The translations under genes and the position numbers were made by a program. A DNA stretch of 64,000 nucleotides, from positions 1,798,001 through 1,862,000 of the forward strand of contig NC_007777.1 of NCBI RefSeq assembly GCF_000013345.1, written 5' to 3'. Shown piece by piece: positions 1,790 through 15,805 of this stretch (the first letter of the stretch is position 1; every line of letters begins with the position of its first letter). The stretch is from Frankia casuarinae. GTDB lineage: Bacteria > Actinomycetota > Actinomycetes > Frankiales > Frankiaceae. The notes below the pieces were generated by a model. The model did not search any database and was not told the DNA's origin. It saw only the letters and a list, made by a program, of their open reading frames with translations.

Positions 1790-1843
1790 AGGTGCCCAGG
1801 TCACGTGAGGTGCCCAGGTCACGTGAGGTGCCCAGGCCGCGTC
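1790..1843 (+). repeat. 18-bp tandem repeat, three units
   Basis: AGGTGCCCAGGTCACGTG at 1790-1807 and 1808-1825, then a diverged third copy to 1843. It lies between the convergent DsbA-family and TerD genes; the last unit touches the TerD stop codon. No hairpin is evident. Confidence 0.85.
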
Positions 1844-2417
1844 AGACGTCCAGGCCGTAGCTGCGGGCGATCGCAGCCAGGCCGCTGACCCCACCCTGGC
1901 CGAGCGCCCGGAAGCGCCAGCCGTCCTGATCCCGGTAGAGCTCACCGAACAACATCGAGGTGTCCCGCGCGGCGGCGGTGGTGAGGTCGTACCGCACCAG
2001 CTCGTCATCGGTCGACGCGTTGACGACCCGGATATAGGCGTCGGTCACGTCGCCGAAACTCTGGTGTCGATAGTCGGCGTTATGGATGCTGACCGGGAAG
2101 ACGATGCGCGTTATTGCACTGGACAGCAGGTCGAGACGCACCTCGATCTGTTCGTCGTCGCCCGCACCCTCACCGGTGAGGTTGTCACCGCGGTGCACGA
2201 TCTCGCCGCGCGGACTACTGAGGTTGTTGTAGTAGATGAAATAGCTGCGGTTGGGAGCTCGCCCGTCCGCCTGCAGGGCAATGGCGCTCGCGTCCAGGTC
2301 GAACTCCTCCGATCCGGGAGCATTCGGATCCCAGCCGAGGCCGACGGTGATGTGCGTCAGGCCGTCGGTGGCTCCGGTGAGCGCGACGCTTCCACCCTTG
2401 ACGACGTCAATGCCCAC
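1842..2417 (-). CDS. TerD-family (tellurium resistance / stress) protein
   Basis: A 191-residue TerD-domain protein. The start is the GTG at 2417, preceded by GGAG at a good distance, which gives the family-typical N-terminus MGIDVVKGGSVALT. Conserved parts follow: VGLGWDPN near residue 26, FDLDASAIAL near residue 38 and the calcium-site regions including DNLTGEGAGDDEQI. TerD proteins bind calcium and occur in predicted stress and phage-response complexes; the biochemical activity is not established. The gene is alone here, with no other ter genes beside it. The tail GLAAIARSYGLDV is typical of the family. Confidence 0.9.
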   Translation of the reverse strand: MGIDVVKGGSVALTGATDGLTHITVGLGWDPNAPGSEEFDLDASAIALQADGRAPNRSYFIYYNNLSSPRGEIVHRGDNLTGEGAGDDEQIEVRLDLLSSAITRIVFPVSIHNADYRHQSFGDVTDAYIRVVNASTDDELVRYDLTTAAARDTSMLFGELYRDQDGWRFRALGQGGVSGLAAIARSYGLDV

Positions 2418-2724: not shown

Positions 2725-2943
2725 GTGGATCGACTACCGTTGCTTGTCGGGTCCGGTGACATCGCTCGGGCGCTGGGTCTGACCCGCCAGGCGGTCGACC
2801 ATCGGCTCCGGATCGATCCGGCCGCGCCGAGCCCGGCCGCGGTGGTAAATCGCACCGCCACCTGGGGCGGGACCCGGATCTGGTGGCGAGCGGAGATTGA
2901 TCGTTGGCTTCGGCTCGAACCCGAGCACTGGGAAGTGCGCTGA
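2725..2943 (+). CDS. small helix-turn-helix DNA-binding protein
   Basis: A 72-residue product from the GTG at 2725. A TAACGT -10-like box at 2711-2716 lies 8 nt before it, which suits a leaderless start; a GTG at 2659 in the same frame would add 22 residues. GSGDIARALGLTRQAVDHRL is a helix-turn-helix, and the C-terminal RIWWRAEIDRWLRLEPE resembles the wing of MerR/AlpA-type excisionase-like proteins. It lies 299 bp upstream of the TIR/FxsT cassette on the same strand, next to two pairs of 14-bp repeats, so it is a candidate local regulator. The target is not known. Confidence 0.65.
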   Translation: MDRLPLLVGSGDIARALGLTRQAVDHRLRIDPAAPSPAAVVNRTATWGGTRIWWRAEIDRWLRLEPEHWEVR

Positions 2944-3035
2944 GGGAGGCCGCCGGGAAAACGCGCTGACGGAAATCTGACGGAAAGCAGAGAGGTCCGC
3001 CCGGGGCATCCGGTGGCCGGCGGTGGACGTCCACA

Positions 3036-3121
3036 GAACGTGGGACGTGGAACGTGGGACGTGCTCGATGGACCGGCCTACCCGCCACGTCCGTGTTGAA
3101 CGATCGTTGTTGAACGATCAT
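3036..3121 (+). repeat. two pairs of 14-bp tandem repeats upstream of the TIR cassette
   Basis: GAACGTGGGACGTG is exactly repeated at 3036-3049 and 3050-3063. TGTTGAACGATCRT is repeated at 3094-3107 and 3108-3121, and the junction makes the palindrome AACGATCGTT (3099-3108). They lie between the HTH gene and the first FxsC-type gene (start 3242), where an operator would be expected. Regulator binding is inference. Confidence 0.7.
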
Positions 3122-3241
3122 TGAGGAAACCGGGCGGGTGGCCATCGCCATGCCGCCGGTCGGCTGATAGCGTCTGATGCCACCGTCCGCCGGGTGACGG
3201 TAGGTTCGGGGGCGCATGGTGCTGGCTTTTGAGGGTACCCG

Positions 3242-4486
3242 ATGAAGAACTACTTCTTCATCTCCTATGCGGCAGATGAGGATCGGCGCTGGGTGCAGCG
3301 CTTTCACGCCGATCTCGAGTACGAGCTGCGGGTTCAGGTCGGCTCCGCGGTGGGCGGAATCCTGGACACCCGTCCGCGTCCCGGCATGGACGCCGACCTG
3401 GCCCTGGCCGCCGGCGCCGGCGGAACCCGCGTGATGGTGGCGCTCTGTTCCGATCCCTTTTTCAGGGACGCCTGGTGCGGGCGCGAGTGGGAGGTCTTCC
3501 ACTCGCGCATCGAAAATTTCAGCAAGGCCGGTGCGACCAGACTGGAGGACGGTTTCCTCCGGGTGCTGTGGCGTCCGACGCAGGATCCCGTCCCGGCGGT
3601 CGCGACGAGGGATCTCGCGGACGCGAGCGCGGGACTCCCCGACACCTATCGCCAGCGCGGCCTGCTCTGGATGATGCGCAAGATGCTGCTCGGGGCGGGC
3701 GGGTACTACTGGTTCGTCCGCATGCTCGCGGCGCGGATCGTCGCGGCCCAGCAGATCACCCTGGACCCGGTGCCCGACCTCGCGGTGCGCCGCGCCGCCG
3801 CGGCCTTCGGCTCCCACCCCGGCTCGTCCGGGGACCCGTCGGAAGCGATGCCCCCCTTCCTTCCGCTGGCCGGGTCCGTGAACGGGAACGGGAACGTGAA
3901 CGGGAACGGGAGAGCCGGTTTCCGGACCCACGGCGACGGCGACGAGGCGCGGCGCGCGGCTTCGATCGGGACGGCACCCCCCGTGCCCACGCCGACTACC
4001 ACCTCCCGCCGAACCACGCCGCCGGTGGCGTCTGACGTACCGTCGCCGCAGACGCCGCTGGCGGAGGTCTCCCGTCTGGTCGCCATCAGCTACGTCGGCG
4101 CCGACCAGGAGTGGGCGGACTGGCTCGAATACCTGCTGCGCCGCGGCTCCCACCGGGTCGTGCAGGTCAGATGGGCGCAGAGTAGAGGTGAGCGGCTGGC
4201 CGAGACGGTTGACCGCATCGCCGCGCGCCGGCCGGATGTCACCGTGGCCCTGCTGTCGCGGCACTACCGGCCGCCCCGCCCGGAGAACCCCGGCGAGACC
4301 GAGATCGAGGCGTGGGAGCGGCTGGGGCTGGCGGGACCGCTCGAGAATCAGGTCATCCGGGCGGTCATCGACCGCGAACCGTTACCCGAGCCGCTGCGGA
4401 CGCTGCCGAAGCTGGATCTGAGCCGGTTCGAGCCGACCGCGGTCGACGGACTGCTGGCGGGGATACGGGCGGGAGCCCGGCGATGA
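3242..4486 (+). CDS. FxsC-type TIR protein with a second, degenerate TIR module
   Basis: A 414-residue protein; GAGGG precedes the ATG by 6 nt. Residues 1-185 are an FxsC-type TIR-like domain: MKNYFFISYA start, GILDTR strand, VALCSDPFF, then AWCGREWEVF, in which the WCGRE glutamate is where TIR NADases carry their catalytic residue. A linker of Asn-Gly repeats and Pro/Thr (about 200-275) leads to a second TIR-like module starting LVAISYVGADQEWADWLE (about 277-400) that lacks a WCxxE motif. FxsC proteins accompany FxSxx-COOH peptide systems and other STAND/TPR loci; NAD hydrolysis has not been shown for this branch as far as I know. The stop overlaps the next start (ATGA), so the genes are translationally coupled. 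Confidence 0.8.
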   Translation: MKNYFFISYAADEDRRWVQRFHADLEYELRVQVGSAVGGILDTRPRPGMDADLALAAGAGGTRVMVALCSDPFFRDAWCGREWEVFHSRIENFSKAGATRLEDGFLRVLWRPTQDPVPAVATRDLADASAGLPDTYRQRGLLWMMRKMLLGAGGYYWFVRMLAARIVAAQQITLDPVPDLAVRRAAAAFGSHPGSSGDPSEAMPPFLPLAGSVNGNGNVNGNGRAGFRTHGDGDEARRAASIGTAPPVPTPTTTSRRTTPPVASDVPSPQTPLAEVSRLVAISYVGADQEWADWLEYLLRRGSHRVVQVRWAQSRGERLAETVDRIAARRPDVTVALLSRHYRPPRPENPGETEIEAWERLGLAGPLENQVIRAVIDREPLPEPLRTLPKLDLSRFEPTAVDGLLAGIRAGARR

Positions 4487-6384
4487 ACGCCTACGCCCGG
4501 CCCGGTCGTCGGCCCGGCGATGCGCCCCCGGTGTGGCGCAGCCGCCGGGAGAACGAGCTGTTCGCCGGTCGCGACGACGAGCTGGAACGCATCTGGGACG
4601 GCCTGACCCGGCATCGGCGGGTGGTGCTGGTGCCGGAGGGGGACCAGTCCGACATCGGGGAGACCGAGCTCGCCGGCGAGTACCAGCATCGGTTCAAGCT
4701 GCGCTACGACGTCTCGTGGTGGGTGGACTGCTCGACGACCGCCGCCGTCCCCGGGCAGATCGGCGAGCTCTACGAGCGGGCCCGCACCGAACTTCCCGGC
4801 CCCCCTCCGGGCGCGGCCGACGCCGGGCCGGAGTCCACCGCGGGATGGTTGGTCATCTTCGCGGGTGTGGGCAGTCCGGACGAGGTGGCGGAGTTCCTGC
4901 CCGACGGCGAGGCGCATGTGATCATCATCGCCGACCGCGCCGTGGGCGCCTGGCGGGACCGGACGATGCCCATCGGGCCATTGCGTCGTCGCGAGTCGGT
5001 CATGCTGCTCACCAGCGCGGCGCCGATGGTCGACCCGGCCACCGCCGCCCAGCTGGGGGAGTTGGTCGGACACCGGCCCGCCCTGCTCGCGGAGATCGCC
5101 GGGTACCTGATCCGCGAGGCGGTCGTGTCGCCGGAACTGTGTCGGCGCCTGCTGGAGATGGCGGCGTCGCGGCCGACGCCGGCCGTCCGGGACGCCGCCG
5201 GCGGTGACCAGTCGTCCCGGGCCCAGGCGATGCGTGGTTCCGGAACCCCCGCCGGGGCCGCGTCCGGGGCCGCGTCCGGGGCCGCAGCCGGGGCCGGGGC
5301 CGCCGTCATGGTCGCAGGCGAGGTACGTGACCCGGTAGGGCGCAACGCGGCGCGGGCACCATCGATTCCTGTGATCAACAAGCACGGCTGGCCCCCCCGG
5401 GAGGTCGACGAGCTCGTCGCGGCCCTGATGCGGGTGGAGTACATCGCTGACCTGGCCGGTTTCGACCACTGGTTCGACGAGCTGACACGGATCCTCGGTC
5501 GCACGATCGCGCTGACCTCCCCGGTCGTCGCGGTCCGCCTGACCACGCTGGTCAGCGAGGCGGTCGGCCAGCCCGATCCCGGCATGCTCGACGCCTTGCT
5601 GCAGGCCCTCGACCTGGTCGCGCCGCGCGACGACCGGTCCGTCGTGGACTTCCGGCGCTTGGTGACCGAGCTGCAATCCCACTGGAGCGGCGCGGGCTCG
5701 GCGCTGCCCGGCATGTCATCACCGGTGCCCGCCTACCAGCTTCCCTCCTGGCCACCGCTGCTGTCTGGAGTGCCCTCCTCACCCCCGCCCAGCCACGGGC
5801 CGTCGGGCACCCCGACCTACTACTTCTTCACCAGCCACGCGCACCGCGACGACCGGGATCGCGTGGCCATCTTCCATCGGGAGCTCGAGCTGGAGCTGCG
5901 CCGCAAGGTCCGGCGCCGGATCCGGCCGACGGGATTCTTCGACGCCGACCGGCTGGGCGGCGGGGAGCACTGGCCGACCTCGCTGCGCGACGCGGTGCGC
6001 ACGGCTCCGGTGCTGGTCGCGCTGTGGTGTGACGACTACTTTGAGAGCGACTGGTGCGGCCGGGAGTTCGGCGTTTTTCAGGAACGTATCCGCCGGGCGA
6101 CCAAGCCGGGCGGGAACCCGCCGTCCGGGATCATTCCCGTGCCCTGGCTGCGGCGGGACGCCGAGGTACCCGAGGCGGCCCGTGAACTCCACATCGCGCA
6201 TATGGAGCTTGGTCGTCAGTATGACAACCTTCCGGTCCTGGATTTGATGCGCCATCCCGCCGCCTTCGCGGAGTATGTAAGTCTGCTGGCCTACCGGGTC
6301 ATGGATGTCGCTCGCGACCAGCTGCCGCCGTTGGACGCCGAGGTGACGGAGCTCGTCCGTTCCCCGTTCCACCATCAGCCGTGA
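4483..6384 (+). CDS. degenerate STAND-ATPase / FxsC-type TIR fusion
   Basis: A 633-residue protein whose ATG overlaps the upstream stop. The N-terminal 250 residues follow the NB-ARC/STAND layout (FAGRDDELERIWDGL, then ELAGEYQHRFKLRYDVSWWVD), but where a P-loop should stand the sequence is EGDQSDIGETELAGEY. The glycines and the lysine are gone, so nucleotide binding is doubtful. An Ala/Gly-rich repeat linker follows. Residues about 303-400 form a helical domain like the effector-associated domains of conflict systems (tentative). Residues 445-600 are a complete FxsC-type TIR domain (TYYFFTSHAHRDD, FFDADRLG, DWCGREFGVF). It looks like a sensor-adaptor with an effector domain. Confidence 0.7.
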   Translation: MNAYARPGRRPGDAPPVWRSRRENELFAGRDDELERIWDGLTRHRRVVLVPEGDQSDIGETELAGEYQHRFKLRYDVSWWVDCSTTAAVPGQIGELYERARTELPGPPPGAADAGPESTAGWLVIFAGVGSPDEVAEFLPDGEAHVIIIADRAVGAWRDRTMPIGPLRRRESVMLLTSAAPMVDPATAAQLGELVGHRPALLAEIAGYLIREAVVSPELCRRLLEMAASRPTPAVRDAAGGDQSSRAQAMRGSGTPAGAASGAASGAAAGAGAAVMVAGEVRDPVGRNAARAPSIPVINKHGWPPREVDELVAALMRVEYIADLAGFDHWFDELTRILGRTIALTSPVVAVRLTTLVSEAVGQPDPGMLDALLQALDLVAPRDDRSVVDFRRLVTELQSHWSGAGSALPGMSSPVPAYQLPSWPPLLSGVPSSPPPSHGPSGTPTYYFFTSHAHRDDRDRVAIFHRELELELRRKVRRRIRPTGFFDADRLGGGEHWPTSLRDAVRTAPVLVALWCDDYFESDWCGREFGVFQERIRRATKPGGNPPSGIIPVPWLRRDAEVPEAARELHIAHMELGRQYDNLPVLDLMRHPAAFAEYVSLLAYRVMDVARDQLPPLDAEVTELVRSPFHHQP

Positions 6385-6582
6385 GCTGCACGGAGCCGTG
6401 ATGAGCTGCACGAACACCCCACGGCCGGCACCCGGCGGCAGCGCGCCGCGACCGTCCCGCCGTACCCGGATCCCCGCGGTGAAGAATGTGGTCCGACCTG
6501 TGCGAGCTGCCGTGGACGTGGGAGGCCCGGGTGCGATGGTAGGGCAGAGGCCCTGCGCCGAAAAACGGCGTGAGGGGGACCT

Positions 6583-7434
6583 GTGACACCGTTCTTTCTG
6601 GTCCATCACGCGCTCGCCGGCGGTGACAGCAGCTATGTCGAACGTTTCTTCGGAGATGTACAGAATGCGGTTTACGAGCGCCTCGGCTATCGTGAGGTGT
6701 TCACTGGCGAGGCGGCCGGCGCGGCGGAGTCCTCGCCGGCGACGGGGGGCCGCTCCAATCCCGATGCGCTCCTGGCGCCGGTGATGGTGGCGCTGTACTC
6801 GGACGCCTACTTCACCGACCACCAGTGCCTGCTGGAGTGGTCGCTGTTCCGGGAACGGCTGCGGTGGCACCACCATTTCACCGGTCGGAGCTCTCCGGCG
6901 CTGGTCGGTGTTCCCTGGTCCATCCGATCGGTACCCGTGCCGGCTCAGATCGCGGAGGCGGGGATGCTTGTCGGCGACTTCGGCGCGGGCTACACGGCGA
7001 GCGGCGCGTTGCAGCTGATCCGGACCGGTTCCGCCTCGGTCTGGTACCAGCAGTTGACCGAACGGGTCAGTGAACTGATCGTGCGTGCCCGCGGCGACGA
7101 GCCGCCGGCACTGTCCACGCGTGACGTGGAGTTCGTCGAGCGGTCGGGGCGGACGGACTGGGTGTCGGCCGGTCGGGGCCGGGGCACCCGCTGGTCTGCC
7201 GGCAGCTCCGCGACGCTGCTGATCCCGCCGGCTCCCCTGGTCCCCCTGGCCTCGACGGTTCGCACGGCTCCAACCCCGGCGGCTCCAACCCCGGCGGCCA
7301 TGGCTTCGGCGGCCATGGCTCCGGCCCGAGTCGGTGGCCGGGAGCGTCGATGGCGGATGGCCGATCCCGAGCACACCCGTCGACCCATCCTGCGTCGTGC
7401 CGGCGCCGCCGAACTGGACGATGACGATGACTGA
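6583..7434 (+). CDS. third FxsC-type TIR-like protein, active-site motif altered
   Basis: A 283-residue protein starting at GTG 6583 after GAGGGGG. Residues 1-170 match the other two FxsC-type domains in layout (FFLVHHALAGGDSSYVERFF, then VMVALYSDAYF), but the WCGRE motif has become HQCLLEWSLF. Trp and Gly-Arg are lost and one Glu remains. The C-terminal 100 residues are low complexity with AAPTPA/AMASA repeats and no recognisable domain. The stop lies inside the start region of the FxsT-type gene (overlap of 14 bp from the ATG at 7421). It is likely a structural or regulatory paralogue of the neighbouring TIR proteins; catalytic activity is doubtful. Confidence 0.7.
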   Translation: MTPFFLVHHALAGGDSSYVERFFGDVQNAVYERLGYREVFTGEAAGAAESSPATGGRSNPDALLAPVMVALYSDAYFTDHQCLLEWSLFRERLRWHHHFTGRSSPALVGVPWSIRSVPVPAQIAEAGMLVGDFGAGYTASGALQLIRTGSASVWYQQLTERVSELIVRARGDEPPALSTRDVEFVERSGRTDWVSAGRGRGTRWSAGSSATLLIPPAPLVPLASTVRTAPTPAAPTPAAMASAAMAPARVGGRERRWRMADPEHTRRPILRRAGAAELDDDDD

Positions 7435-10400
7435 ACTTTCCGAGCAACCACCGGAACTTTCCAGGCAACCACCGGAACCGGCGGGTCACGACACGCCGGG
7501 CGGGCGCGCCGGCAGGCCGGCGCAGATCATCACCTTCTACTCCTACAAGGGCGGTTCGGGGCGCACGATGGCACTGGCGAACGTCGCCTGGCTGCTCGCC
7601 GCCTCGGGTAAGCGGGTTCTCACCGTCGACTGGGATCTGGAGTCTCCCGGCCTGCACCGGTATTTCCGCCCGTTTCTGCAGAACAGGGAGCTGGACTCGA
7701 GTGACGGCGTCACCGAGATGCTCCAGGGTTTCATCCGGGAGATCGACCGGCTCCAGGACGCGCCGCCGTCGACATCCGCGGAGCAGGCCTCCGTGCCGGA
7801 CGCCGACGCGGTGCGCGAGATCATCGCCCTGCACGGCGACTTCCGGCACAACATCGAGACCATCGAGTGGCCCGGGTTCCCGGGCGTCGGACGGATCGAC
7901 TTCCTCGGTCCCGGCCGGCAGACGTCCACGAGCGCGGTGCTGGTGGCCACGGTGCCCTGGTCGACGCTGTTCGAGGACGCCGACGGCCGGGCGTATTTCG
8001 CCGCGCTGCGTGAGCGCATGCGGTTCGCCGACTACGACTACGTCCTCATCGACAGCCGGACCGGCACCTCGGACGCGGCCGGCGTCTGCACCCAGCTCCT
8101 GCCGGACACCGTCGTCATCGGATTCGCGCTGAACAACCAGTCCATCGACGGCGGCGCCGGGGTGGCCCGCGAGATCCGTAACAGCAAGCGGGACATCCGG
8201 GTGCTGCCCGTCCCGATGCGGGTCGAGGACACCGAGCAGCGCAAGCAGGAACTGCGCCGCCGCGCGGCGTTCCACGCCTTCCGCCCGGTGTTGGCCGACC
8301 TGTGCGGTTCCGACCCGGAGGCACAGCGGAGCTTTCTGATCGGCCTGGAGATCCCCTACAAGGCGGTCTACGCCTACGAGGAGGTCCTGGCGGCCTTCCA
8401 GGAGGATCCCGCCAGCCGGCTCGGCGTCCAGGCCGCCTACCGGATGCTCGCCGGAGAGCTTGCCGGCGCCCCGATCGATGCGCGCCCCGTCCCGCCACAG
8501 GATCGGGAGCGGGTGCTGCGGGACTTCGAGCAGTACGGACCGCCCGCTCCGCGGTCGGTGGCGATCTTTGGGGCGCCCGAGGACCGGCCCTGGGCGGACT
8601 GGCTGGTGTCGGTGCTGGGAGCCACCGGGGTGCGGATCCGACCGCTGCCCCCGATGGCGCTGACCCCCGCCGACTTCCCCGCCGTCGAGTCACTGATCGT
8701 GATCGGATCACCGCATCTGGGCCCGGACACCCCGGGTGAGTCCCTGGTGCGCGAGCAGATCCAGACCCGGATCCGCCAGCGCGGCTCGCGGGCGGGGGTG
8801 GTGGTCGTCGAGGTGGGTTCGATGCGGCTCGACTCCGCCTACCATGGAGCCGAGATCATCTCCCTGCCCGCGCGGAACGAGCGGGACGCGGGGGTCGTGG
8901 TCCTCGAAGGGCTGGGGCTGCCCGTTCCGCGGGCCCGACTCGACGACCTGCGGGTGGTCGCACCCCGGTACCCGGCCCGCCGGCCCCGCTTCTGGTCGGT
9001 GCCGGCCAGGTTCGCCCAGCCGTTCGTCGGACGGCACGCGGTGCTGGACGAGCTGCGCGACCGGCTGCTGCCGGGGGGCCGACCGAGCGGGCTGTGTCCC
9101 CTGCTCGGCCCGGACGGCGTCGGGAAGAGCGCCATCGCGGCCGAGTACGCGCACCGGTTCGACTCCGACTACGACATCGTGCACTGGATCTCGGCGGGTG
9201 ACGCCGCCTCGGTCCGGGCGGGCCTGCGCGACCTCGCCGAGCGGCTGCGTCCCGGCAGCGACGTCCCGGACGCGCAGCGTTCCCCGAGCGAGCAGCTCGA
9301 ACGGGTCGCCCTGGACGCGCTGCGCCAAGGCGACCCCTCGGCGCGCTGGCTGCTTGTCTACGACGGCGCCGCCGACCCGCGGACGCTGGCCGGGCTGTTG
9401 CCCGTCCCGACCGGCAACGGCCATGTCCTGCTGACTTCGGCGGATCCGGCCTGGGACAGTGAACCCGGCGCGTTGTGGGTGGACCCGTTCACCCCGGCCG
9501 AGAGCCGGGCGTTCCTGCGCCGGTGGCTGCCCGAGGTCGGTGAGGACCGGCTGGCGACGATCGCCGAGCGGCTACGGCATCAGCCGTCGGGCCTGCGCAC
9601 TGCGGTCGGGCGGCTTCGCCAGGACCGGCGGGGAGTGCCGGTTGACGATCGTGCCGTCGACGCCTACCTCACCCAGCTCGCCGGGGTCGCACCCGAGCAG
9701 GCAACCTGGACGGTGTCGTTCGAGACCCTGCGCACCAGCGACCGCGCGACCCGGCGGGCGGCGGCCCGGCTGCTGGAACTGTGTGCCTTCCTGGCCCCGC
9801 AGGGCGTGCCGCTCGCCCTGCTGGAATCCCCGGTGATGCTGCGCCATCTCGCCGAGGCGGTGGGGGACGACGCGATCGCCGACCCGACCGTGCTGCCCGA
9901 GCTGTGGGCGGAGATCCGCAAGCCCCGGCTGGCCGAAGTCGACACCGTACCCGACGGTCAGTTCCGCCTCGCCGCGCGCTGGCAGCGGCTCCTCGTCGAA
10001 CGGATGCAGCCCGCCGAGCGGACCGCCGCCCGCGAGGCGGTGCTCGGCATCTTCGCGGACATCGCCGCGGCCGCTCCGCGGCCCTCGGCCGCCGCGGGCT
10101 GGCCGATCTACCGGATGCTGGAGGGTCAGATCCTGGCCTCCGAGGCGATGGAGAGCCCGGCACCCAAGGTTCGGCAGTGGCTGGTGTCCCAGGTGTATGT
10201 GATGTGGCGGTCCGGCCGGCTGGAGTTGGGCCGCGGCATCGCCGAGGATGCGTTGCGCAGATGGCGCGACCTGTTCGGAGCGGACGACCCGCTGACCCTG
10301 CGGATGGCCGCCCACCTGGCCATGGTGCTCCGCGGTCTGGGACGGTTCCAGGAGGCGTACGACCTGAACACCGACACCCTCGCCCGCCAGCGCCGCCACC

Positions 10401-11401
10401 TGGGCATTTTCCATCGCCACACATTGATCACCGCGATGAGTTACGGCATCGACATCCGGGAGCTCGGCCGGTACGCCGAGGCAGCCGCGGAGGAGAGCAG
10501 CACCCTGGTCGGTTTCCGCGACCGGCTCGGCGACAACCACCTCGACACCCTCATGGCCGCGAGCAACCTCGCGCTGTCCACCTTCCTGGACGGGCGGGCC
10601 CGCGAGGCGCTCCACCTGAGCCTGGACACCATGGCGCGGCTACGCCTGGCGGGGGCCGAGGGCACCTCGCAGTTCTGGTGGCTGCAGGCGCGGGCCGGGA
10701 TCTGCCATCGGGAGCTGGGCGAGCTGGAGCAGGCGGAGCGGTTGCTGCGGGAGGCCGCGACCAACCTCGCCGGCATCGAGGGGGCGACGACGCACCTGAC
10801 CCTGCGCTGCAACAAGCATCTCGCGGTCGTCCTGCGCCTGCGGGGCAGCCCGGACGCGGCGAGCCGCCTCGCCGGTGAGACGCTCGAGCGCTACACCGAG
10901 ATCTACGGGGCGTCCGACCTGGGCACCCTGGCCTGCCTGCTGAGCCGTGCCGGCCATCTGCACGCGCTGGGCGAGCACCACCGGGCGTCCGTCGAGGCCG
11001 AGTCGTGCCTGCGGGAGTACGAACGTCTCCACGGCCCCGAGCATCCGTTCACGAACATCTGCCGCTCGGATCTGTCCATCTACCTGCGCGCGGACGGGCG
11101 GCTGGCGGAGTCCCGCGCACTGGCCGAGCAGGCCCACCTCACGCTGGTCGACGAGCTCTACCAGCACCACCCGTTCGCGCTGGCCGCCGGGGTGAACCAC
11201 GCCGCGAGCCTGGCGGCCCTCGGCGAGACCGAGGCGGCCCGGGCGCTGGACGAGGATCTGTTGCGCGAATCCGAAATGTCACTGGACAGCAGCCATCCCT
11301 ACCTCCCGATAATGCGGGAGAACCTGGCGGTCCTCACCGGCAGGCAGGCCGGCGGTGGGCGTGGCCATCGAGAAGTCGACATCGACATCTCCAGCATCTG
11401 A
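7421..11401 (+). CDS. fxsT: FxsT-type protein: ParA-like ATPase + TIR-like + NB-ARC + TPR
   Basis: A 1326-residue protein (ATG 7421; ATG 7427 also possible). In order: a SIMIBI/ParA-like NTPase with deviant Walker A KGGSGRT at residues 43-49 and VDWDLESPGLHRYF just after; a degenerate TIR-like segment (RSVAIFGAPEDRPWADWL, about 370-500); an NB-ARC ATPase with P-loop GPDGVGKS at 563-570 followed by IAAEYAHRFDSDYDIVHW; then helical repeats of TPR type from about residue 940 to the end (repeated GRFQEAYDLN, GRYAEAAAEE, GELEQAERLL turns). This is the architecture of the FxSxx-COOH system TPR protein (FxsT). Such chains are thought to be signalling scaffolds; the trigger is unknown. The C-terminus ends DIDISSI. 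Confidence 0.85.
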   Translation: MTMTELSEQPPELSRQPPEPAGHDTPGGRAGRPAQIITFYSYKGGSGRTMALANVAWLLAASGKRVLTVDWDLESPGLHRYFRPFLQNRELDSSDGVTEMLQGFIREIDRLQDAPPSTSAEQASVPDADAVREIIALHGDFRHNIETIEWPGFPGVGRIDFLGPGRQTSTSAVLVATVPWSTLFEDADGRAYFAALRERMRFADYDYVLIDSRTGTSDAAGVCTQLLPDTVVIGFALNNQSIDGGAGVAREIRNSKRDIRVLPVPMRVEDTEQRKQELRRRAAFHAFRPVLADLCGSDPEAQRSFLIGLEIPYKAVYAYEEVLAAFQEDPASRLGVQAAYRMLAGELAGAPIDARPVPPQDRERVLRDFEQYGPPAPRSVAIFGAPEDRPWADWLVSVLGATGVRIRPLPPMALTPADFPAVESLIVIGSPHLGPDTPGESLVREQIQTRIRQRGSRAGVVVVEVGSMRLDSAYHGAEIISLPARNERDAGVVVLEGLGLPVPRARLDDLRVVAPRYPARRPRFWSVPARFAQPFVGRHAVLDELRDRLLPGGRPSGLCPLLGPDGVGKSAIAAEYAHRFDSDYDIVHWISAGDAASVRAGLRDLAERLRPGSDVPDAQRSPSEQLERVALDALRQGDPSARWLLVYDGAADPRTLAGLLPVPTGNGHVLLTSADPAWDSEPGALWVDPFTPAESRAFLRRWLPEVGEDRLATIAERLRHQPSGLRTAVGRLRQDRRGVPVDDRAVDAYLTQLAGVAPEQATWTVSFETLRTSDRATRRAAARLLELCAFLAPQGVPLALLESPVMLRHLAEAVGDDAIADPTVLPELWAEIRKPRLAEVDTVPDGQFRLAARWQRLLVERMQPAERTAAREAVLGIFADIAAAAPRPSAAAGWPIYRMLEGQILASEAMESPAPKVRQWLVSQVYVMWRSGRLELGRGIAEDALRRWRDLFGADDPLTLRMAAHLAMVLRGLGRFQEAYDLNTDTLARQRRHLGIFHRHTLITAMSYGIDIRELGRYAEAAAEESSTLVGFRDRLGDNHLDTLMAASNLALSTFLDGRAREALHLSLDTMARLRLAGAEGTSQFWWLQARAGICHRELGELEQAERLLREAATNLAGIEGATTHLTLRCNKHLAVVLRLRGSPDAASRLAGETLERYTEIYGASDLGTLACLLSRAGHLHALGEHHRASVEAESCLREYERLHGPEHPFTNICRSDLSIYLRADGRLAESRALAEQAHLTLVDELYQHHPFALAAGVNHAASLAALGETEAARALDEDLLRESEMSLDSSHPYLPIMRENLAVLTGRQAGGGRGHREVDIDISSI

Positions 11402-11524
11402 GTAGCGTGATGAGGTCGAGCGACGAGTGCACAGTGGCAATCCGCCGGCGGCCGGTCCGCCCGGACCGGGGTTTCCGGTCCGGCGTCGGCCGCCACCCGC
11501 CGGGAGCGGCAGAAGGATGAGCTG

Positions 11525-12592
11525 ATGGTGACTGTTCCTGATGATGTTGTCGAACCCCGCATCGTCACCGCGCCGCATGTCGGCGACGAATACAACGGCA
11601 TCCGGCAGAAGTTCCGCGGGACGGTGGCTGTCACGGGTGCCCAGTATCTCGAGTACTACGTCCACGGATTGCCGACGGTGTCGGCCGATCTTCTGCACCA
11701 TCCGCGGCTGGCCGACTGTTTCCGTGGTTCACGCACGGTGGAACGGGCCCGCCGGGACTACGAGATCATCGGCCGGCAGCTAAACCACCGGATGACGGAG
11801 CTGAACACCTCGCTGGCCGCTCTCGCCAACGGGCGGCTAATCCGGACGGTCTTCGCCGCGCAGGACCGGGCGGTGCTCTACTTCGACGTCGACGAGGGGC
11901 AGTACATCGTCGGGGTCTCCCTCGGCGCGGACGCCATCGAGTCCGCTGACCTGACGCTCTCGCGGACCGCGACGGAAATCCGGGCGGCCCGGGGGATCGG
12001 CGACCCCAACTACGGCGGCTATCACCGGGGGGACGGCACGTTCCTTCCGTCGCCCACCCGCGCCGACGGTAGCCCGGACACCGGCTCTCATCCATTCGTG
12101 TCGTTGCCGAGGCCGTCGGCGCCGGTGTTCGCCAATCCCTGGGCATCGCTGATCAAACGGCGTTGGTCACCCGCCGGGGACTCGCGGGAGGAGGAGTTCC
12201 AGGCCCAGGCCGTCAGCGTCCTGAAGCCCGGTGACCTCCAGTACATGGCCCTGGTGCGCGGCGGCACGGTGAGCGCCGCCGACCTGATGGACCACGACGA
12301 CCTCAACGAATTCTTCGTCGGTCTGAGCCGGGAGGCCCGCCGGGAGGGTCTCGTCAAGGTCGCCGCCAAGTTCCTCGCCCTGAGCGATCTGCTCGACGGT
12401 CTGCTGCGATCGGTCCTGAACCGCCGATTGACCCGCACCGTTCTCGACGTGGAGAAGGGTGCGCTGTACTTTCATCGCCTCAGCCGTGACGAGTTCCTGA
12501 TGGGCGTCACCCTGGATCAGCGTCGGGTGTCCGAAGCCGACCGCCGCTTCCAGCTGCTCGTCCGCCGACTGACGGCTTCGTACGGCTGTTGA
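11525..12592 (+). CDS. unrecognised protein made of an internal duplication
   Basis: A 355-residue protein; AAGGA precedes the ATG by 8 nt. I do not recognise the family. Two copies of one module are visible: QYLEYYVHGLPTVSADLLHH at about residue 40 matches QYMALVRGGTVSAADLMDHD at about 238, and RLIRTVFAAQDRAVLYFDVD at about 103 matches RLTRTVLDVEKGALYFHRL at about 305. The halves are joined by a Ser/Pro-rich linker (about 165-220). There is no signal peptide or membrane segment. It sits between fxsT and the HExxH gene, 123 bp after the former and 130 bp before the likely start of the latter. It could be a partner or carrier for the modifying enzyme; that is inference from position only. Confidence 0.65.
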   Translation: MVTVPDDVVEPRIVTAPHVGDEYNGIRQKFRGTVAVTGAQYLEYYVHGLPTVSADLLHHPRLADCFRGSRTVERARRDYEIIGRQLNHRMTELNTSLAALANGRLIRTVFAAQDRAVLYFDVDEGQYIVGVSLGADAIESADLTLSRTATEIRAARGIGDPNYGGYHRGDGTFLPSPTRADGSPDTGSHPFVSLPRPSAPVFANPWASLIKRRWSPAGDSREEEFQAQAVSVLKPGDLQYMALVRGGTVSAADLMDHDDLNEFFVGLSREARREGLVKVAAKFLALSDLLDGLLRSVLNRRLTRTVLDVEKGALYFHRLSRDEFLMGVTLDQRRVSEADRRFQLLVRRLTASYGC

Positions 12593-12722
12593 AAGGCGCC
12601 GGATGACGCCAGGCGAATCCCGTCGATGGACGGGATCATTGTCGATGTCCTCGCGTATTCTTCGTCGAGCAGGTCCCCGCGTCGCGCCGACGCGTACCCG
12701 TTGGTGGGGAGGCCCCACATTC

Positions 12723-15032
12723 ATGGCCCACGATCTGATGCCCGTGCCGTCCGGTCTGGTGGATCTCTGCGAGGTCGACGTCGACCGGCTTGCCTCCCTC
12801 GCGGGTCCACCCTCGGGAGAATGGCAGCGCTGGATCGCCGCCTGGATCGGCTACCCGGGCAGGCCGCTGCCCGGGGACGTAGCTCTGGCCCTGGGCGGGG
12901 ATCTGGACCTGACCGACTACCTGCCCAGGACCACATCCTTCGGGGAGATGCCGGACGGCACCGACCCCCCGAAGCCGCCGCGTCTGCCCGGGGCCGCCGC
13001 CTGTTCGGGCGGACGGCCCGCGTCCGGTGGCGCCATGACGTCGGGTGGCGCCATGACGTCGGGTGGCGCCATGACGTCGGGTGGCGCCATGACGTCGGGT
13101 GGCGCCATGACCCACGCCTCTCGGCGGCTCGTCCGTCCTACCGGATCCGCCCGTCGGGTGGTCTCCCCACCCGTCGCCCGGCATCGGATCACCCCGAGGG
13201 ACATCGAGGCCGTGGCGGGCGGGTCGCCGGGTGCCGCACCGCTGCGCGAGCTGCTGCGGGGTCAGATCAGCAAACGGATGCTGATGCTGTGGGCGTTGCT
13301 GCGCGGCCTTGAGAACGCCGACCTCGACGACGCGACGCGCACCTGCGTAGATGAGGCGCTGCGGGTGCTCGGGGACGCTCAGCGGCGGGCCCGCGACGCC
13401 GTCCACGACCTGCTCCTGCACCCGACGATCGGGACCTGGCTCGCCGGCAGCCTGCGGCGGTGCTGGCAGGGGTCGGCCGGACCCGACCTCGACCGCCTCG
13501 GTTATGTGGGTGGGATCGCGGTGGCCGCCGCCCTGCGGGCCCGGATGCCGTGCCGGGTGCCGGTGCGGATCATCGACGGGCTGGTGTCGATCCCCACGAT
13601 GGGCGTCGTCGGGTCGGGGGCCACGAGCGGTTGGGGCGTCGCGCACGTGTCCGACCGGCGGGTGACGCTGCGTGGCAGCGCCGGGTGGGGACCGGCCGGT
13701 GGTGACGGCTGGACTCCGGCGCGCATGCTGTCGAGCACTGTCGACGGTCACCGAATCGCACTGACGCTGGAGGACACCGACCCGTTCCGGGCCGCGGACA
13801 CGCTTCCCCTGCCCGTCGCCGCGCGCTGCGACGAGGCGGCGGCCCGGTGGCAGCGCCTGCTCGACGGCGCCTGGAGTGTGCTCGCGGGCGACGACGGGGT
13901 GCGGGCGGAGGAGGCCGCCGCGGTCCTGTCGGCGCTGGTCCCGTTGCGTGAGGTCCCGGACCGGCCCGGCACCGGCGTCACCGTGATCGACGCGCTCGGC
14001 GCGCTGATGGTCAGCCCGCCGACCGACGCGCTGTGGCTTGCCATCACCGTCGTGCATGAGGCGGCGCACACCAGACTGGAGATGCTGAGCGATCTTGCGC
14101 CCCTGGTCGGCCCGCACGACGGCTCCGTGCACTACGCTCCCTGGCGGCCCGACCCCCGGCCACTCGCCCCGCTGCTGCACGGCGCCTTCGCCTTCGCCCA
14201 GATCGCGGCCTTCTGGGCGGGGCGGTGGGCCCGGGACGGCGCCGGGTCGGATCTGGGCGCGGCGTACGAGTTCGCCTGGTGCCGGGACGCGGTCTCGGCG
14301 GTGCTGCCCGTGCTGCGGGATGCGGCCGGGCTCACCGAGGCGGGCCGCCGGTTCGTCTCGGCCATGGGCGCCAGGATCGACGTCTGGATCGCCGCCGACC
14401 TGCCGATCGCGGCCACTACCACAGCCGCCACCGTGCTGCGCGACGTCGCCGTCGTCTGGCGGCTGCGTAACCGCCGGCCCGACCGCGACCACATCGAGAG
14501 ATGGGCGCGGGACTGGGCTGCCGGTCGGCCCTGCGGACGGCCGGTAGCGCCGTCGTCCCGCCTCGTCCCCCAGACCGAGCCGTACAGCCCGCACCGCCAC
14601 GCCCGGCAGGCACTGACCTCGCTGCGGTTCGCCATGCCCGACCGGTTCGCCGGGCTCGCTGGTTCTGCCGGGCTCGATCCGGCGGCCTGGCCCGTCAACG
14701 CGACCCTCGGAGACCTGCTCTACGTGCGCGGAGACCTCGGCCGCGCGGCCGAGGAGTTCCGCCGGGAGCTGCAGGCCCGTCCGGGGCGGGCGGAGTCGTT
14801 CGCGGGGCTGGCCCTGGTGCTGGCCAGACGGGCCGGGGGACTGGAGCGCCGGCTCTACCTCGACCACCCCGAGGCGTTGCTGGCCCTGAGCGTCCGGATC
14901 AGGGAGCTGACCGGCTCCACCCCTGACCCGCGCACGCTCGCGCGGTGGATCGCGGCGGGAGGCCCCGGTTACCCGGATCGCTCGTGGCGATCTCTCAAGA
15001 CGAGGCCGCTACCGGTCGGTGCCCGGCGATAA
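12723..15032 (+). CDS. HExxH-type putative peptide beta-hydroxylase (2-oxoglutarate/Fe family)
   Basis: A 769-residue protein from ATG 12723, which follows GGGGAGG; an in-frame ATG at 12603 would add 40 basic residues. The family motif VVHEAAHTRLEML has the metal-binding HEAAH at residues 445-449. It is followed by VHYAPWRPDPRPL and LLHGAFAFAQIAAFW, the conserved downstream block of the HEXXH putative peptide-modification family (TIGR04267), now regarded as Fe(II)/2-oxoglutarate peptide beta-hydroxylases rather than proteases. The C-terminal 130 residues are helical and TPR-like. An 18-bp minisatellite inserts five GGAMTS repeats near residue 105. In FxSxx loci this activity accompanies a radical-SAM enzyme, which is missing here. 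The peptide substrate is unknown. Confidence 0.85.
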   Translation: MAHDLMPVPSGLVDLCEVDVDRLASLAGPPSGEWQRWIAAWIGYPGRPLPGDVALALGGDLDLTDYLPRTTSFGEMPDGTDPPKPPRLPGAAACSGGRPASGGAMTSGGAMTSGGAMTSGGAMTSGGAMTHASRRLVRPTGSARRVVSPPVARHRITPRDIEAVAGGSPGAAPLRELLRGQISKRMLMLWALLRGLENADLDDATRTCVDEALRVLGDAQRRARDAVHDLLLHPTIGTWLAGSLRRCWQGSAGPDLDRLGYVGGIAVAAALRARMPCRVPVRIIDGLVSIPTMGVVGSGATSGWGVAHVSDRRVTLRGSAGWGPAGGDGWTPARMLSSTVDGHRIALTLEDTDPFRAADTLPLPVAARCDEAAARWQRLLDGAWSVLAGDDGVRAEEAAAVLSALVPLREVPDRPGTGVTVIDALGALMVSPPTDALWLAITVVHEAAHTRLEMLSDLAPLVGPHDGSVHYAPWRPDPRPLAPLLHGAFAFAQIAAFWAGRWARDGAGSDLGAAYEFAWCRDAVSAVLPVLRDAAGLTEAGRRFVSAMGARIDVWIAADLPIAATTTAATVLRDVAVVWRLRNRRPDRDHIERWARDWAAGRPCGRPVAPSSRLVPQTEPYSPHRHARQALTSLRFAMPDRFAGLAGSAGLDPAAWPVNATLGDLLYVRGDLGRAAEEFRRELQARPGRAESFAGLALVLARRAGGLERRLYLDHPEALLALSVRIRELTGSTPDPRTLARWIAAGGPGYPDRSWRSLKTRPLPVGARR
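13026..13110 (+). repeat. 18-bp in-frame minisatellite in the HExxH gene
   Basis: GGTGGCGCCATGACGTCG occurs four times exactly and a fifth time in part, encoding GGAMTS repeats in the N-terminal linker before the conserved helical region. Each unit contains an in-frame ATG. Confidence 0.95.
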
Positions 15033-15176: not shown

Positions 15177-15805
15177 ATGGCCACGATCGAGGCGCTCACG
15201 GTGACGCCGTCTCCGGCCGTGACGCCGTCTCCGGCCGTGACGCCGTCTCCGGCCGTGACGCCGTCTCCGGCCGTGACGCCGTCTCCGGCCGTGACGCCGT
15301 CTCCGGCCATGGTGGCGGAGCCGGATCAGGGCTGGTGCGCGCGGTTGGACCCGGCGGTCCGCCCGGATGGATGCGACCGGTCCGTTGATCCGTTCGCGGT
15401 CGGTCCGGGGGGTGCACCAGAGGCCGCCGGGACCCTCACGATCGCCGAGGCCGCCGCGGCCACCGGAGTCAGCGCGCACACGCTGCGGTACTACGAGCGG
15501 GCGGGGCTGATGCGGGACCCGGTCGCCCGTGCCTCGTCGAGCCATCGGCGCTACACCGTCGAGGACGTCCGCTGGGTCACGTTCCTGACCAAGCTGCGGC
15601 TCACCGGCATGCCGATCCGGGAGATGGCGCGCTACGCCGAACTGGTGCGCGCCGGGGAGGGGAACGAGGCGGAGCGTCTCGCCCTGCTGACCGAGCATCG
15701 CCGCCGGGTCCTGGCGCGCCTCGACGAGGTGCAGCGCAACCTCACCGCCATCAACGTCAAAATCAGCATTTATCAGGACATCTACCAGGAGAGGGTCGTC
15801 CGCTG

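Follow-up and report, generated by a model that had tools for sequence, protein, structure and literature searches.

The closest described relative of the locus analysed here is, as far as section 24 of Kaur et al. 2020 (PMC7159879) describes it, the standalone peptide-processing system reported there, in which HExxH proteins are found with a variable small precursor gene and a MinD/ParA-AP-ATPase in actinobacteria. A second related group is that of the FxSxx-COOH cyclophane RiPP systems (TIGR04268/TIGR04269, NF040588, NF040586), which comprise FxsC, FxsT and HExxH proteins, the enzyme FxsB and a precursor, FxsA, that ends in FxSxx. Among the HExxH enzymes that have been characterised, the residues beta-hydroxylated are Asp and His, or Gln; backbone cleavage is also possible, and in a fused rSAM-HExxH enzyme the hydroxylation of Asp/His needs a preinstalled cyclophane (PMC12636437).

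We analysed a stretch of 64,000 nucleotides from Frankia casuarinae (the window; NC_007777.1, positions 1,798,001 to 1,862,000) and searched the whole genome, a single closed contig of 5,433,628 bases. The locus shares with the standalone system of Kaur et al. a HExxH protein and a MinD/ParA AP-ATPase/TPR protein, together with an FxsA-type precursor that is here present only as a fused domain, and no vWA/VMAP genes were found in it. It differs from that system, as described in the part of the paper available to us, in that the leader is fused to the HExxH enzyme, FxsB appears to have been lost, and extra FxsC-type TIR proteins are present. In the same part of the paper we found no mention of two further features of the locus, a predicted tandem Roadblock protein and a C-terminal tail motif of FxsT. 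FxsC-like, FxsT and HExxH proteins and an FxsA-type leader are likewise shared with the FxSxx-COOH systems; in contrast to these, the Frankia genome lacks FxsB, no precursor with an FxSxx C-terminus was found, and the leader is part of the enzyme.

Genes of the cassette

A sequence-only reading of the window had placed the cassette at 2725-15032 on one strand (plus), and both strand and positions were borne out. The corrected gene starts are 4483 for the second TIR gene, 7421 for FxsT and 12723 (not 12603) for the HExxH gene. The first gene (2725..2943, +; GTG start) encodes a putative helix-turn-helix protein of 72 amino acids without a Pfam match. This protein is 93% identical in L034, L036 and L037 (plus the duplicate records L051 and L052), where it lies 5’ of the cassette, with no match elsewhere. 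The six core genes that follow co-occur in other genomes, but only those loci of Frankia sensu stricto that have long enough contigs show the small gene beside the cassette, and its link to the system is doubtful. Just upstream and divergent from the cassette we found a TerD-domain gene (PF02342, 227 bits; 1842-2411, minus strand); its mechanical ORF extends into the first gene of the cassette, the TerD domain itself beginning past residue 150.

Three genes had been read as encoding FxsC-type TIR proteins. The domains are present in all three, but their scores with the FxsC model NF040588 (74-107 bits) fall below its curated cut-off of 130 bits; judged by these scores, the proteins are related to FxsC but are not members. 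The first (3242..4486, +; 97 bits) has an FxsC-like TIR domain and a C-terminal TIR_2 domain (E 4e-23). The second (4483..6384, +) consists of a STAND-like region similar to the N-terminal part of FxsT (NF040586, 108 bits), an EAD2 effector-associated domain (5416..5664, +; 28 bits) and a C-terminal FxsC-like TIR domain (107 bits). The third (6583..7434, +; 74 bits) carries the divergent motif QCLLE, the WCxxE motif being intact in the other two. The EAD2 domain is the sole copy found in the genome, and no EAD2 partners were found elsewhere in it. When known defence-system models were compared with the cassette, the sole match was of the ATPase motif region of FxsT to PDC-M28B.

The FxsT-type protein (7421..11401, +) combines an N-terminal KGGVGR/ParA ATPase (NF047398, 120 bits), NB-ARC and TPR, and it scored 644 bits with NF040586 (cut-off 300 bits). 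The protein thus has both the FxsT identity and the ParA ATPase earlier ascribed to it, and it corresponds to the AP-ATPase with MinD/ParA of Kaur et al. Intact KGGxGRT was seen only in FxsT proteins adjoining the gene for the 355-aa protein described below, mostly in the Frankiaceae branch.

The last gene (12723..15032, +) encodes a predicted aKG-HExxH-type hydroxylase of 769 amino acids with an N-terminal FxsA-leader domain and a C-terminal helical extension. A ribosome-binding site, GGGGAGG (12706..12712, +), precedes its conserved ATG, with an equivalent GGGAGG in L049, L051 and L052. The mod_HExxH catalytic domain (13860..14366, +), of which the genome has one copy, scored 137 bits against the TIGR04267 cut-off of 40, and its catalytic motifs are intact: HEAAH at 14055-14069 and, downstream, APWRPDPRP (APWRxDxRP). 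The closest solved proteins by sequence, SjiH (E 1.6e-86) and ChlH, are also the closest by fold. These matches agree with the initial assignment as a HExxH peptide hydroxylase, and we consider the protein a putative Fe/alpha-ketoglutarate-dependent enzyme of this kind. It has the fold and catalytic motifs of ChlH (8s5f), SjiH (22nu/22ob) and PflC/PosC, and differs from them in its leader fused in cis, in the lack of a cyclophane synthase and in its TIR/STAND neighbours.

An FxsA-type leader at the N-terminus of the HExxH enzyme

Residues 8-47 of the HExxH protein (VPSGLVDLCEVDVDRLASLAGPPSGEWQRWIAAWIGYPGR; 12744..12863, +) were identified as an FxsA-type leader domain from an FxsA-model search, an hhalign comparison with canonical FxsA, and dN/dS. 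The FxsA model was built only from FxsA peptides of loci placed by TIGR04268, excised from these loci by means of the precursor model, and no fused sequence was used. We ran it over 12,140 six-frame ORFs from all cassette loci and the window. Small precursors, recovered from almost all of the related loci, ranked first, followed by six of the seven fused N-termini, all from HExxH proteins of Frankia sensu stricto, together with a candidate from L044 (E 0.001-0.016), and then by background. The N-terminus from the window was the weakest of the seven (E 0.53 among all ORFs, below an unrelated L063 ORF at E 0.29); among the 1,047 ORFs of the window it ranked first (E 0.046). When the profile of the Frankia N-termini was aligned with the canonical FxsA profile, hhalign gave P 6.7e-7 and a score of 37.3, reached by none of 305 controls (best of 200 column shuffles, 15.7; best of 105 windows from other cassette proteins, 19.3). 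NCBIfam models had no match to the fused N-termini, and an early small-precursor model matched them only at E about 4-20. The ranking by the FxsA model and the comparison of profiles against controls therefore show, at the profile level, that the HExxH enzyme carries a fused FxsA-type leader at its N-terminus.

The precursor peptide had been described as not visible. This holds insofar as the window has no genuine FxSxx ORF: three ORFs end in FxSxx, none a convincing gene, with unconvincing codon composition or a position out of frame in known genes. It does not hold for the leader, and the locus seems peptide-less because the leader apparently became the front end of the enzyme. Such a fusion explains why precursor searches fail at loci of this kind. 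A known parallel is found in the borosins, whose precursor and methyltransferase form a single chain. The logic of joining precursor and modifying enzyme is the same; the enzyme is unrelated, and the leader is N-terminal in the Frankia protein.

Conservation does not stop where the leader ends but continues to about residue 75. Between the window and the others, identity is 53-57% over residues 8-75 and 30-37% in the linker, and dN/dS is lower over the leader and this stretch than in the linker that follows. We regard residues 41-75 (12843..12947, +), with the pattern WIG[YHQ]P... Y-PR, as a candidate embedded core. In a structural model of the fused protein, mean pLDDT was 63-77 over leader residues 11-40, and the linker was modelled with very low confidence. 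A separate idea, that WxG[HY]P substitutes for FxSxx, was dropped as unproven: L059 carries WVGHQ as well as FxsB, and in the hhalign alignment the motif falls where the leader ends.

FxsB and precursors in the genome and in related cassettes

The lack of a radical-SAM gene noted at the locus holds, for FxsB, across the whole Frankia casuarinae genome (best 35.7 bits, cut-off 370). Nor does any FxsA in the genome exceed its cut-off (best 22.8 bits against 28, inside a frame of 1250 aa).

The gene for the 355-aa protein is present in 13 of 35 genomes of the family, the query counted. Where contigs are long enough, its neighbours and their order are unchanged, apart from some strand switches in L043 and L044. 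Searching the whole collection added Thermomonospora, Streptomyces, Kibdelosporangium, Micromonospora, Streptosporangium, Actinomadura, Lentzea, Saccharothrix and Dactylosporangium. FxsB was not found in the cassettes of Frankia sensu stricto, L039-L042, L044, L058 and L062; it is present in L043/L055, L054, L057, L059, L060, L061 and L063. Three of the latter (L059, L060, L063) had been candidates for FxsB-less cassettes and were rejected, FxsB lying in another frame over an extended HExxH ORF. The absence of FxsB is, as had been suspected, consistent across Frankia sensu stricto and its sister loci, but FxsB does occur in more distant cassettes that carry the 355-aa family. A survey of 395 actinomycete genomes gave 135 strong HExxH matches, of which 53 had no FxsB within 8 kb, and therefore a HExxH locus without FxsB is unexceptional in itself.

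FxsA, for its part, is not consistently absent: what is an N-terminal enzyme domain in Frankia casuarinae is a separate precursor gene in relatives. L039-L042 have a small ORF with an FxsA-like leader between the 355-aa gene and the HExxH gene (the top NCBIfam models for two of these are TIGR04268, at E 0.018, and NF041709, at E 0.083), and in L057 and L061 FxsA peptides are encoded 5’ of FxsT. A profile from the first eight precursors found more in L043, L054, L058, L060 and L062, which had played no part in building it. The Saccharothrix precursor (L062, 6027-6188) ends in a canonical FxSxx (AAFQSSL), with no FxsB in the fetched locus. We also fetched 20 FxsB-less HExxH regions, in one of which the 355-aa gene is present. 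A separate precursor was found in 17 (E below 0.01 to 0.02 with at least one model), a weaker one in another, and none in two; no region had a fused leader. Of all the loci compared, only those of the fused Frankia clade had the leader joined to the enzyme.

In the FxsT tree, the fused cassettes form a clade of seven rows (100/100) nested in a Frankiaceae clade of 11 rows without FxsB (100/99), and the FxsB-bearing cassettes lie outside. From this topology the likely order suggested is a series from FxsB with a separate precursor, through loss of FxsB, to fusion of the precursor. The tree was rooted at its midpoint and the L056 contig is truncated, which makes the point of FxsB loss approximate.

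A predicted tandem Roadblock/LC7 protein

The protein of 355 amino acids (11525..12592, +) had been noted as unrecognised and as having a duplicated domain. It indeed has no match in Pfam or NCBIfam, and the internal duplication is genuine (hhalign P 5.6e-31). An AF2 model (pLDDT 85, pTM 0.84) has the Roadblock/LC7 topology (alpha-beta-beta-alpha-beta-beta-beta-alpha) in both halves, and MglB structures rank top in Foldseek (TMt 0.66-0.80). We therefore predict from the model that the protein consists of two tandem Roadblock/LC7 (MglB-like) domains. Each half would share its fold with MglB; the differences are that the two domains are in tandem in one chain, that the cassette has no small Ras-like GTPase, and that a sequence search against PDB gave no match.

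Four Promicromonospora/Myceligenerans loci (L064-L067) encode a Roadblock-like protein of one domain, the N-terminus of which is hydrophobic in L064 and L065; no HExxH or FxsT match was found in these fetched loci. In L057, L058, L059, L061 and L063, Pseudonocardiaceae and related cassettes, AAA/STAND-like genes on the opposite strand adjoin the tandem Roadblock gene, at about 12-15 kb of the loci (the AAA matches were checked only in L057 and L063).

A C-terminal tail in HExxH-linked FxsT proteins

The FxsT protein of the window ends in VDIDISSI (11375..11398, +), in which acidic and hydrophobic residues alternate. Similar tails were found in the HExxH-linked FxsT proteins examined (DIDIDISSV, xIDxDxPQT, LDFDFEPPPL, CDIDPMPL), and are absent from the three other FxsT-like proteins of Frankia casuarinae and from FxsT-like proteins of genomes without HExxH. 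The motif may be written as D-hydrophobic-D/E-hydrophobic-x-P-x-L or similar (window 11366-11401, and the FxsT genes of L147-L165). Together with the Roadblock identity, the tail offers handles on how widespread actinobacterial peptide systems are coupled to TIR/STAND signalling.

Proposed mechanism and alternatives

The coupling of a peptide-hydroxylase module to TIR/STAND proteins, already proposed from the window, is supported, and the six core genes co-occur in other genomes. We think it probable that the locus is a standalone FxsA/HExxH/FxsT peptide-processing module in which FxsB was lost first and the FxsA-type precursor then became the N-terminal part of the HExxH enzyme by fusion, giving a self-presenting mechanism. 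Sequence comparison supplies the fused leader, the intact catalytic motif, the genome without FxsB and the conserved gene order, and a predicted structure supplies the Roadblock identity; from these we infer self-docking, modification of residues 41-75 and control of the TIR/STAND complex.

In its specific form, which we put forward tentatively, the module would be a self-modifying RiPP enzyme. The leader would dock in cis on its own HExxH enzyme, and the segment that follows (residues about 41-75, then a variable linker of roughly 75 residues) would be presented to the Fe/alpha-ketoglutarate site. Side chains would be beta-hydroxylated, and backbone cleavage would possibly free the modified peptide. 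Either this peptide or the enzyme in its modified state may then license or gate the TIR/STAND/ParA-NB-ARC-TPR complex, in which the Roadblock protein would regulate the NTPase or act as a scaffold and the WCxxE TIR domains would be the effectors. Several findings count against the fused-precursor explanation: the window’s own N-terminus gave the weakest of the seven single-sequence matches, and NCBIfam models did not recognise the fused N-termini; the fused domain has no free C-terminus and no FxSxx; the Lys two past the second His (HxK) is replaced by Arg in the fused clade; and a preinstalled cyclophane would not be available through FxsB, because the genome has none.

The main rival is that the leader has no core and is a permanent docking or activating element, the constitutive enzyme acting in trans, most simply on the C-terminal tail of FxsT. 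The tail occurs on the HExxH-linked FxsT proteins examined, those of FxsB-less loci included, and is lacking from the unlinked ones, and Asp is a known target of HExxH enzymes (PMC12636437). However, in most systems the FxsT tail occurs alongside a separate precursor that has a C-terminal end of its own, and the tail may therefore serve for docking; the conservation of the fused domain beyond the leader to about residue 75 also argues against this alternative, which we regard as rather unlikely. Less probable still is the proposal of Kaur et al. 2020 (PMC7159879) of a zincin-like peptidase, by which the HExxH protein would release a signal peptide through cleavage of the precursor, in this case of itself: of its nearest solved structures, SjiH and ChlH, the latter is an alpha-ketoglutarate-dependent oxygenase, and the TIGR04267 family model is named peptide beta-hydroxylase. 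That the substrate is encoded elsewhere, or is the 355-residue protein as first suggested, would fit a window without an FxSxx peptide but is very improbable, given the leader fused to the enzyme, a genome without FxsA over cut-off, and the prediction that the 355-residue protein is a folded tandem Roadblock, which leaves its role as hydroxylation target without support.

Under the self-modifying reading, the Frankia protein would be a natural single-chain fusion of substrate and enzyme in which the HExxH oxygenase can be studied without a cyclophane synthase. Two short in-frame tracts of tandem repeats were also seen as variable linkers: SGGAMT, present five times in the linker of the HExxH protein (window 13000-13140), and AVTPSP repeats in a MerR gene (15190-15290).
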